Shown here: one piece after another, positions 33,238 to 36,556 of the stretch
Numbering within the stretch: the first letter of the stretch is position 1
Layout of the letters: every line of letters starts with the position of its first letter
Assembly (NCBI RefSeq): GCF_000738005.1
Contig: NZ_JHAL01000002.1
Location: 248,001 to 312,000, forward strand
Direction of reading: 5' to 3'
Source: Bifidobacterium crudilactis
GTDB taxonomy: Bacteria; Actinomycetota; Actinomycetes; Actinomycetales; Bifidobacteriaceae
Length of the DNA stretch: 64,000 bases
Made by a program: the position numbers and the translations under genes
Notes under the pieces: model-generated
What the model was told of the DNA's origin: nothing
Database searches by the model: none
Seen by the model: the letters and a program-made list of their open reading frames with translations, nothing else

Positions 33238-35319
33238 TTACCAGATACGCACTCTGGAATCCGGTGCGAGCCACATCTCATCCCCGTCCTTCACCGAAAA
33301 GGCTTCGTGGAAGAGATCGACATTGCGCACGATGCCGTTCGTTCTGAACTCGGCAGGGGAGTGTGGGTCGATTTGCAGGTACTGTTCCGCCAGTTGGTCA
33401 CGCAGCTTGGTTCTCCAGATCGAAGCATAAGCGATGAAGAAACGCTGAACACCGGTGAAGCCGTCGATTTCCGGTGCGTTGACGAGAGAATCTCGGATGG
33501 CCTGCGCACTGCCGTCCTTGCTGCGACCAGCCGCCGCATCAAGGGCGAATGCATAGGCTTTCAGGGAGATGTTCACGCCGCCCAGATCGCCGATGTTCTC
33601 GCCGATGGTCAGGGCACCATTGACATGAGGAGCCTTGGTGGGGTCGTCGGCGTACAACTCGGCCAACTGTGCGGGTACGAAGGTGTTGTACTGGTCGATG
33701 AGAGCAGTCGTGCGTTCTTCGAAGTTCTTGCGATCCTCGGCCGTCCACCAGTCGTTCAGACGTCCTGAACCGTCGTATTTGCTGCCCTGATCGTCGAAAC
33801 CATGCCCGATTTCATGACCGATGACTGCGCCGATGCCGCCGTAGTTCGCAGCATCGTCCGCATCCGGGTCGAAGAAGGGAGGTTGCAGAATAGCTGCGGG
33901 GAACACGATGACGTTCATCGTGGGTTCGTAATAGGCGTTCACCGTCTGCGGGTTCATCAGCCACTCGTCCTTGTCGACTGGCTGGCCCACTTTGCTCATC
34001 TGGTATGCGGTTTCGTAGGTCTGCGCGGCGTGGATGTTCTCGCACAGGCTGGCTTTGTCGCTAACCTCAAGGGCGGCGTAATCCCTCCAGTGATTGGTGT
34101 ATCCGATTTTCGGAGAGAACTGGTCAAGCTTGTTCAGGGCCTTCTCTTTGGTCTCGGCGCCCAACCAGTCACTCGATGTGATGGATACGCGATACGCGTC
34201 GATAAGATTGCTGACGAGCTCTTCCATCCGCTGTTTGCTGGATTCAGGAAAATGCCTGCTGACGTAGATTCTGCCGACGTCCTCACCGCAGATGCCGTTG
34301 ACGAGCATGACCCCGCGCTTCCAACGAGCCCGCATCTCCGTGGTGCCCGATAGGACTTTGCCGTAGAAGTCGAAGCGTGCCTGATCGAAATCGTGGCTGA
34401 GATATCCTGCCCAGGAAATCAAGGTGTGCACGCGCGCCCAGAGTTGCAGGTCGCTTAATTCAGCTTCATCCCACACGGCGTCCAATCCGCTCAGGAAGCT
34501 CGGCTCGTGAACGATGGTGTGTTCAAGCGATCCGGCGAAGTTCAGCGGCATCGTCCGGGCGGATGGGGTCGAGTCGTAGGACCGTTGCCATGATTGTGCC
34601 CAGGCTTCGATGTCCACATGGGACAACGCGGATTGCAATGCCTTGAAATCTGTGGGGTTGTATGTTTTGTCCTGGTCGCGGGTCTCAACCACATCCCAGT
34701 GGTGTGCGGCGATACGGCATTCAAGTTTCAGGAATCGTGAGGCCTGCGCGCTCGCATCATCCATGTCCTTCGCGTAACCGGCCAACATCAGGAGTTTGGC
34801 TACCATTTCCTGATAGGCTTCGCGGATTGTCGTATAGCGGTCCTCGCGGTAATACGCCTCATCAGGCAGTCCAAGTCCGCCCTGTTCGATGTGGACGATG
34901 TTGCGTTCGGGTTCGCCAGGGTCGCCATACACCCCGATTCCCAACAGGTCCGGTCCACCCAGCGGATTCAGCGCGCCCAGCGCCTTGATGAGCTCCTGCT
35001 TGTCTGAGGTTCCGTCGATGGAGTCGAGGTCGGCGCGGATTCCTTCGATTCCCGCCGCTTCGATGGCATCGGTGTCGAGGAAGCTGTTGTACAGCGCGCT
35101 CGACTTGGCCGCCGGCGTTTCGGGGTCCTCAAGGATGTCGCGAATCTGAGTTTCGGCATCATCTGCGAGCTTGTCGAAGGAACCGAAGCGTGAACGGTCA
35201 TCGGGAAGCGAATAGGTGTCGATCCAGGGACCATTGACATAGCGGAAGAGGTCTTGTTTCGGTGTGATCACTGACGAAAACGATGTGGGATCAATGCCCG
35301 ATTTCAATTCTGTGTCCAT
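33238..35319 (-). CDS. pepO: M13-family zinc endopeptidase (PepO)
   Basis: Neprilysin-type oligopeptidase of 693 residues without signal peptide, so probably cytosolic and acting on short peptides. The zinc motif is VIGHEIGHGFDD (HExxH), the third zinc ligand lies in GENIGDLGG, and the two M13 domains (large N-terminal, C-terminal catalytic) are present; NAYYEPTMNVIVFPAAIL is the substrate-binding strand region. It starts 31 bases from the beginning of the hairpin array at 35350, so its promoter must lie in or across that array. Confidence 0.93.
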   Translation of the reverse strand: MDTELKSGIDPTSFSSVITPKQDLFRYVNGPWIDTYSLPDDRSRFGSFDKLADDAETQIRDILEDPETPAAKSSALYNSFLDTDAIEAAGIEGIRADLDSIDGTSDKQELIKALGALNPLGGPDLLGIGVYGDPGEPERNIVHIEQGGLGLPDEAYYREDRYTTIREAYQEMVAKLLMLAGYAKDMDDASAQASRFLKLECRIAAHHWDVVETRDQDKTYNPTDFKALQSALSHVDIEAWAQSWQRSYDSTPSARTMPLNFAGSLEHTIVHEPSFLSGLDAVWDEAELSDLQLWARVHTLISWAGYLSHDFDQARFDFYGKVLSGTTEMRARWKRGVMLVNGICGEDVGRIYVSRHFPESSKQRMEELVSNLIDAYRVSITSSDWLGAETKEKALNKLDQFSPKIGYTNHWRDYAALEVSDKASLCENIHAAQTYETAYQMSKVGQPVDKDEWLMNPQTVNAYYEPTMNVIVFPAAILQPPFFDPDADDAANYGGIGAVIGHEIGHGFDDQGSKYDGSGRLNDWWTAEDRKNFEERTTALIDQYNTFVPAQLAELYADDPTKAPHVNGALTIGENIGDLGGVNISLKAYAFALDAAAGRSKDGSAQAIRDSLVNAPEIDGFTGVQRFFIAYASIWRTKLRDQLAEQYLQIDPHSPAEFRTNGIVRNVDLFHEAFSVKDGDEMWLAPDSRVRIW

Positions 35320-35349
35320 AAGCCCAGCCTAATGACGTTTCCTGACAAG

Positions 35350-35703
35350 CCGAGCCGTCAAATGTGAAGCGCAGTGCGCTTCACATAGGCGAGGTGAGCA
35401 ACCGCAAAGGCCGAGCCGCCAGAAGGGGATGCCCTGTGGGCATCCCGTAGGCTCGGTGAGCGCCCGCAAAGACCGAGCCGTTAAGGCCGAAGCGCTGTGC
35501 GCTTTGGCTAGGTGAGGTGAGCGCCCGCTAAGGCTGCGATGATGCCCGTGTGTTTGGGCATAAGGGCTTGATGTAAGTACCGCATCCGGGCGACACGTCC
35601 ACTGAGCCGTTAAGCACACAACCCGGTGGGTTGTGTGTACGTGAGGTGAGCGCACAATATCGGATGTGGGCAAGCGCATAGCGATTGCGGTGAACAGCCC
35701 GCA
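35350..35703. repeat. Array of about six hairpin units with conserved flanking boxes
   Basis: The clearest repeats start at 35350, 35411, 35473 and 35602, with degenerate units between and after. Each unit has a left box near CCGAGCCGTTAA, a stem-loop and a right box near GAGGTGAGCGCCCGC. Inner stems differ in sequence but pair: 35362-35386 (11 bp), 35426-35446 (9 bp), 35486-35508 (10 bp, one wobble), 35542-35561 (6 bp), 35615-35637 (10 bp) and 35670-35688 (8 bp, one mismatch). Five of the six loops are three bases. The array lies between divergent pepO and map. Minus-strand reading gives repeated peptides, but this is a by-product of the repeats. Confidence 0.8.
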
Positions 35704-35776
35704 TGTCAACATGGCGGTCTGTAACCACATAGCAGTAGGGTGGTGGTAACCAAACAAGGTAGAAAGAAACAATCAA
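35704..35776. other. Short region between the hairpin array and map
   Basis: The remainder of the 457-bp pepO/map intergenic region. It precedes the TTG start of map and shows only a weak purine-rich stretch, with no strong ribosome-binding site. Confidence 0.35.
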
Positions 35777-36556
35777 TTGATCGAACTGAAGACACCACAG
35801 GAAATCAAATCCATGCGCCCCGCAGGAAAATTCGTAGGTAGCATTCTCAAGGATTTGCGCAAGATGACCAAGGTCGGCACCAATCTTCTTGAGATCGACG
35901 ACTTCGTCAAACAGCGCATCGAGGGACGTTCCGGCGCGGAATCCTGCTATGTGGATTATGCACCGGATTTCGGGACCGGGCCTTTTGCCCATTACATCTG
36001 TACTTCGGTGAATGACGCCGTGCTTCACGGTGTGCCTTTCGACTACGCATTGAAGGATGGGGATCTGCTCAGTCTGGATCTTGCCATCAATGTGGACGGT
36101 TGGGTAGGGGACTCGGCGATAAGCTTCGTCGTCGGTGACCACGCCGATCCGGAGGATCTGCGCATCATCAAGGCCACGGAGGATGCTCTGAAGGCCGGTA
36201 TCGCAGAGGCCGTTCCAGGGAACCGACTCGGTGATATCTCATCGGCGATCGGCGATATCGCGCACGAGAACGGATACACGGTCAACCTGGAGTTCGGCGG
36301 CCATGGCGTAGGGCACATCATGCATGGTGACCCGCATGTAGCCAATGACGGCAAGGCCCATCACGGCTACAAGCTGCGGAACGGTCTGGTCATAGCGATC
36401 GAACCATGGTTCCTCAGGACCACTGATGAGATCATCCAGGATCCGAAAGATGGCTGGACCTTGCGTTCGGCGGACGGATCACGTGGCGCTCACACCGAAC
36501 ACACCATCGCGATAACCGATGACGGTCCGATTATTTTGACCGCCAGGGACGAGTAG
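35777..36556 (+). CDS. map: Methionine aminopeptidase, type I
   Basis: Removes the initiator methionine from nascent proteins. The pita-bread metal ligands are visible: D in LSLDLAINVDG and D in WVGDSAISF, H in FGGHGVGHIMH, E in AIEPWFL and the final E in AHTEHTIAI. The start is the TTG at 35777 (MIELKTP), which gives the family N-terminus; the ribosome-binding site is weak. Length 259 is typical. The hairpin array of 35350 lies immediately upstream. Confidence 0.94.
   Translation: MIELKTPQEIKSMRPAGKFVGSILKDLRKMTKVGTNLLEIDDFVKQRIEGRSGAESCYVDYAPDFGTGPFAHYICTSVNDAVLHGVPFDYALKDGDLLSLDLAINVDGWVGDSAISFVVGDHADPEDLRIIKATEDALKAGIAEAVPGNRLGDISSAIGDIAHENGYTVNLEFGGHGVGHIMHGDPHVANDGKAHHGYKLRNGLVIAIEPWFLRTTDEIIQDPKDGWTLRSADGSRGAHTEHTIAITDDGPIILTARDE

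Follow-up and report, generated by a model that had tools for sequence, protein, structure and literature searches.

An array of palindromic units between pepO and map

In the window, i.e. the whole stretch of 64,000 nucleotides that was analysed, an array of palindromic units lies between two divergent genes, pepO (33238..35319, minus strand) and map (35777..36556, plus strand). The gene names are those of a preliminary description made from the sequence, and both open reading frames were confirmed. As stated there, the array adjoins the start of pepO; its distance from the start codon (at 35319) is 30 bases, however, not 31. Four full units, all on the plus strand, begin at 35350, 35411, 35473 and 35602, with spacings of 61, 62 and 129, and the earlier count of about six units is therefore too high. 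The register varies with the method: the covariance model places the second and fourth units at 35411 and 35602, and another registration places them at 35412 and 35601. The left and right boxes, the self-complementary inner stems of differing sequence, the three-base loops and the spacing of 61–62 bp were all confirmed as described. On each strand the folding of the array region beats that of all 100 shuffles (z of -5.1 and -5.5).

Each unit, hereafter called E, opens with a left box (C[CT]GAGCC-GTTA or a close variant); next come a stem of 11 bp (H1) closed by a three-base loop, and then a right box similar to TA-GGC-GAAGTGAGC. Unit 1 (35350..35410) has the left box CCGAGCC, an H1 of 11 bp, the loop AGT and the right box GGCGAGGTGAGC. 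Unit 2 (35411..35472) has the loop TGT, and its basal stem is lengthened to CCGAGCC/GGCTCGG. In both of these units the right part of a second hairpin (H2) is missing, the hairpin being truncated and displaced by the next unit (unit 2 and unit 3, respectively). Unit 3 (35473..35541), which also has the loop TGT and contains one G.T pair, has the right box GGTGAGGTGAGC followed by an H2-like sequence, GCGCCCGCTAAGGCTGC. The stretch from 35542 to 35601 is not a full unit and consists of a different hairpin, ATGCCC/GGGCAT in the plus-strand sequence (35542..35561), and a plus-strand segment 5' of unit 4 (35562..35601) which resembles the host sequence T described below. Unit 4 (35602..35676) has the loop GGT and a degenerate H2. 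Together, this segment and unit 4 (35562-35653) are 88% identical to positions C2:125809-125900 of the same genome (G000), a match which suggests that E may be moved or copied with its left neighbour sequence.

A dispersed repeat family with covarying stems

E is a dispersed repeat, in which the boxes and the loop are conserved and the arms of the stem vary yet stay paired. A search of the window's own genome with the window DNA gave 25 places, including the window itself. The covariance model and the search of other genomes that the preliminary description had proposed were carried out. The model, built from 45 units, has 49 matches in this genome, which may be a lower bound because 150 of 1121 first-look candidates were scored. 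Within the genus, matches are found in six of 27 genomes. Within the order, five of 149 genomes have matches, of which three belong to the same family (best E-value of 1.1e-14 or lower); the other two have one marginal match each (4.0e-4 and 9.9e-4), which we take to be chance. An exact pattern of the boxes alone, searched over 84,980 prokaryote species, retrieved 72 stretches, every one with a Bifidobacterium title, from 27 species or isolates by count of titles. The exact box pattern had no match in viral contigs, nor did the window array in plasmids and phages by blastn.

In the loci measured, a full E is 64–80 nt long and has the form CTGAGCC-GTTA-[H1, 11 bp, loop NGT]-TA-GGC-GAAGTGA-[H2]-GAAG. 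In complete copies elsewhere, H2 is a second covarying hairpin after the right box and is usually followed by GAAG. Among 108 distinct E with H2, 89 start with CT and 85 end with GAAG. The orientation of the H1 loop is retained, NGT being present in 101 of 111 units and ACN in 1. There is also an E-like variant in which a pair of the basal stem is flipped (GAGGC..GCC for GAGCC..GGC); it lies 3' of a gene-end hairpin in the right flanks of loci L122, L168 and L180.

Covariation was assessed in three sets of units. The first set (A1) comprises 45 units left after removal of three of 49 rows (one chance match and two doubles) and of one identical row, and its selection by a folding threshold favours pairing; 95.8% of its cells pair, and 15 of its 20 pairs are changed on both sides, where shuffles lead one to expect 9.5. 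Its covariation score is 0.539 (0.190 when shuffled), and slid structures pair at 28–42%. In the second set (A3, 109 units), whose members were required to have 6 or more Watson-Crick pairs out of 11, which again favours pairing, the score is 0.608 (0.216 when shuffled), and 10 pairs show a double change, a number not above that of shuffles (104 of 500 reach 10). Two-sided change is seen in the basal GCC/GGC stem as well, from G-C to A-U in 6 of the 109. The third set was chosen by the boxes alone, which removes the pairing bias of the other two. Among the 70 of its 74 matches that have the standard length, 61 pair at 11 of 11 positions and 9 at 10 of 11; when the arms are swapped between copies, 79.6% of cells are paired. 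Hence the stems do covary in larger alignments, whose failure to do so had been named in the preliminary description as evidence against it, and its alternative of selection for structure or a palindrome-making copying process holds up, the covariation being above that of both shuffled and slid controls.

The manner in which the arms change was examined in 91 distinct arm pairs, among which 103 neighbour pairs, not independent because they overlap, differ at exactly one of pairs 2–11. In 83 of these a Watson-Crick pair is replaced by another through change on both sides (27 transversions), in 2 a double change leads to a mismatch, and in 18 the change is one-sided. A similar pattern is seen between orthologous E of G000 and a second species, G004, in aligned stretches which are 71–91% identical. 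At four of the six shared sites 16 pairs are compensated, none is changed on one side only and 24 are unchanged; at the two sites not counted the units are unmatchable, and at C2:1118 the unit match is uncertain. So few intermediates are compatible with very strong selection, or else with the use of one arm as the template for copying the other. The imperfect pairs show ratios of G.T to A.C of 23:7, 23:10 and 12:5 by set, the last being from the set chosen by boxes alone. Were G.T clearly in excess, the plus strand would be the one that folds; the excess is weak and differs with the set.

Empty sites and copies of host sequence at the borders

The orthologues of map were used to compare the site among relatives. 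In G004 and G011 the spacer between pepO and map shares the conserved ends but lacks the array, and in a third, more distant relative (G015) no unit is seen by eye. The absence of the array from two close relatives therefore indicates an insertion and not a conserved control region. The suggestion that the array is a control element touching both promoters is accordingly not supported: E is dispersed, it is absent from this site in the two relatives, and elsewhere it lies mostly between converging genes, its position between divergent genes in the window being atypical. A riboswitch or operator specific to pepO and map is rejected on the first two of these grounds. No sigma-70-like promoter was detected in a scan of 35200-35900. 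The array is, on balance, best regarded as four copies, in tandem, of a palindromic bifidobacterial repeat that is probably mobile.

In part of the copies, host sequence is found in repeated form at the borders of E. On the left, a host sequence, T, is directly repeated within 3 nt of the start of E in 34 of 108 copies, compared with 8 of 1066 controls composed of mismatched flank pairs. In 26 of the 34 the repeat is exactly flush with the start, and some of the 34 (e.g. L183, L165, L015 and L184) are longer tandem duplications which hold parts of E. The remaining 74 copies, with the window array among them, have no flush direct repeat. On the right, stems with a score of at least 10 begin at most 2 nt from the end of E in 25 of 71 loci, while random positions gave 12 of 710; three of 74 loci, in which the end of H2 was not recognised, are left out of this count. 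In 23 of the 34 copies with a direct repeat, the first 8 nt downstream of E agree in at least 6 positions with the reverse complement of the far end of the right T (81 of 1420 for random positions), and the inverted copy most often runs 4 nt beyond the end of the right T (11 of 23). The direct copies at the start of E and the inverted copy immediately after it together give the order T - E - inverted T - T, a layout that is present in other bifidobacterial species.

In the examples inspected by eye, the right T corresponds to a coding end: in L156, L114 and L119 it is the 3' end, whose stop codon lies close to the loop of the hairpin, and in L116 and L154 it is the 5' end, with the start codon. 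Therefore, the gene at the right remains whole. For one gene, presumably NhaP-like, 12 gene ends from 12 of the 27 genomes were compared and no inverted copy was seen by eye, a weak comparison at the distances involved (34–51% protein identity).

Two further arrangements were noted. Apparently the same gene-end hairpin (..CCACATATG, then ..CAGCCAGAA) bears E in G000 at C2:1680416 (L011), in G004 at C1:2331888 (L035) and in B. moukalabense (L153), i.e. in two bifidobacterial lineages, with differing H1 arms; it may represent either old inheritance or a repeatedly used target. In twelve loci (L115, L120, L121, L123, L128, L130, L137, L144, L150, L170, L174 and L178), E appears by eye to lie within a long outer inverted repeat, the inner bases of which are conserved near ACCGTAAGACTTGGC and CCGGAGCGTGTCG, and the orientation of the core relative to these arms can be either way.

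Competing explanations, proposed mechanism and related systems

Of 74 loci, 37 have convergent, 27 tandem and 5 divergent flanking open reading frames, and the other 5 are unresolved; these counts rest on crude calls of reading frames with no intergenic baseline. The predominance of convergent over divergent neighbours, the covarying stems and the retention of E by G000 and G004 at six orthologous sites would all agree with a host-selected RNA element. In this view mRNAs would be terminated or stabilised by E together with the neighbouring gene-end hairpin, often where genes converge, and selection on this function would keep the stems paired. The six sites in particular, in DNA that has otherwise diverged to 71–91% identity, would also fit a host function. 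Such an element is nevertheless unlikely: it leaves the direct and inverted copies of host coding ends unexplained, the array is absent between pepO and map in two relatives, and no classical terminator is associated with E. No T-run intrinsic terminator occurs in 35200-35900 (mean of 0.8 in shuffles), and TTTT follows E within 10 nt in none of the 71 loci with a recognised H2 end. Both scans reject a classical terminator of the T-run type, to which this result applies.

A match to a known RNA family had been named in advance as evidence against the preliminary description. The Rfam search of 35000-36100 gave one match with an E-value of 0.22, its 14.3 bits falling short of the gathering score of 82, and seven further loci gave none; a known Rfam RNA is rejected, with no match above the gathering score.

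In G000 and G004, the plus strand of E is the leading one in 26 of 32 unmixed clusters (p of 5e-4). The assignment was based on dnaA positions and samples of GC skew, one mixed cluster being left out, and the counts of the two genomes are not independent because at least six sites are shared. By local skew, the plus strand is leading in 42 and not in 30 of 72 loci from other species, which is not significant (p of 0.19).

The genomes were also searched for an enzyme that might drive E. A Y1 transposase (PF01797) was matched in none of the 27 genus genomes, six of which are E-positive, whereas named controls were positive in 5 of 14; a Pfam-detectable Y1 transposase is thus ruled out as the driver. 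The reverse transcriptase expected of a group II intron or another element driven by reverse transcription (RVT_1) was matched in one of the 27 genomes (G004) and not in that of the window, and is set aside as the driver. This gene (G004:C1:1965491-1966990, L031), the frame of which is split over two open reading frames, adjoins two E copies and may be DGR-like. Among the 25 commonest of 134 Pfam families in the flanking proteins (135 of 187 scanned), there was no transposase, integrase or reverse transcriptase. In these families and this part of the flanking proteins, then, no dedicated enzyme for E was found.

Less likely still than a host RNA element is a REP or BIME of the RAYT type, i.e. 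single-stranded DNA hairpins moved in trans by a Y1 transposase that has been lost or has diverged too far to be detected. The usual start of E, CT, is the cleavage dinucleotide of E. coli TnpA-REP according to the accessible text of PMC8266576, many units have the tetranucleotide GAAG 5' of H2, and the strand bias in G000 and G004 would be in keeping. Against these points stand the missing PF01797 match, in the E-bearing genomes as in the others, the want of an invariant GTAG tag, and the long direct and inverted host copies, of which the accessible parts of PMC3733652 and PMC8266576 make no mention for REP. Least probable of all is replication template switching without mobility, by which palindromes would be homogenised and local host sequence duplicated around an ancient, vertically inherited E: the double pair changes without intermediates, the sites shared by G000 and G004 and the yeast precedent for arm homogenisation are compatible with it, but the loop orientation is kept where the accessible text of PMC8604942 reports spacer inversion, the array is absent in two relatives, and identical starts and ends of E stand beside unrelated genes.

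Our preferred account, held with moderate confidence, is that E is a REP-like mobile palindrome, the folded single strand of which is recognised and the insertion of which involves a template switch in replication. While the anatomy of E is observed directly, its enzymology we infer as follows. A strand-specific factor would recognise E as a folded single strand (of DNA or RNA), and at the replication fork E would be joined to a 3' end. DNA synthesis would then double back along some 10 to 27 nt of the target and return, so that the target would be recopied and the gene end restored. The arms of E may be kept matched by the same palindrome-copying tendency or by selection for recognition. Replication is invoked because direct, inverted and direct copies with E at one junction are the trace expected of a polymerase. 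Since template switching in yeast inverts spacers, which is unseen in E, a strand-specific factor reading the loop and boxes is likely in addition. A bolder proposal, put forward tentatively and in our view unlikely, is that E represents a new class of mobile DNA without a dedicated transposase, a folded single strand of which would be copied into the target as replication proceeds, with the target duplicated directly and inversely, the gene end restored, a fresh target regenerated and the arms rewritten together.

Compensatory change in stems is normally read as a sign of RNA function; here it is seen in a dispersed repeat whose host flanks have also been made palindromic. E may thus offer a natural case in which to ask to what extent a copying process can imitate selection on structure. 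Should it be mobile, it would be a REP-like element in a lineage in which no Y1 transposase was detected (0 of 27 genomes). In a literature search which for the most part stopped short of full text, neither a description of such a repeat nor a counterpart of its insertion signature was found.

Among known systems, integron attC sites have conserved boxes around a variable palindromic core and are recognised as folded single strands. E also has conserved boxes around such a core, and would be recognised in a like manner; it differs in that no gene cassettes lie between its units in the loci examined and that what is copied at its borders is the nearby host gene end. Tandem inversion duplication, like E, produces direct, inverted and direct copies. 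These copies and the homogenisation of arms are also shared with quasi-palindrome template switching, which in yeast homogenises the arms of inverted repeats and also inverts spacers (PMC8604942, accessible text). In E, as distinct from both processes, one junction holds the same E sequence at unrelated genes. MITEs are defined by terminal inverted repeats of their own. E has no such repeats: its ends are CTGAGCC and GAAG, and the inverted sequences at its borders are host copies which differ between loci.

The closest resemblance is to REP, BIME and REPIN sequences with RAYT (TnpA-REP). The accessible text of PMC3733652 describes CGTC-tagged REPs as palindromic repeats without a dedicated transposase; none was found for E either, and no CGTC tag is conserved at the H1 or H2 border of E. 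Neither Actinobacteria nor 'Bifidobacter' occurs in that text, nor does 'Bifidobacter' in the accessible text of PMC12306157 (RepRanger). For GTAG-type REPs, a GTAG tag and a Y1 transposase are the marks given in the accessible parts of PMC3733652 and PMC8266576. In E, GTAG is not invariant, TAGG being present 3' of H1 in most units with a varying base before it, and no RAYT or Y1 transposase was found in its genome or kin (0 of 27). E also departs from REP and BIME in its two-hairpin unit, in arms which vary while pairing, and in the direct and inverted host copies at its borders. On the other hand, both are short, dispersed intergenic palindromes, some in tandem, with conserved strand-specific unpaired bases and a CT border, and E forms many dispersed extragenic palindromes with clusters, as GTAG-type REPs do. 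Thus E, although it fails the tests of tag and transposase, is like REP and BIME in layout.
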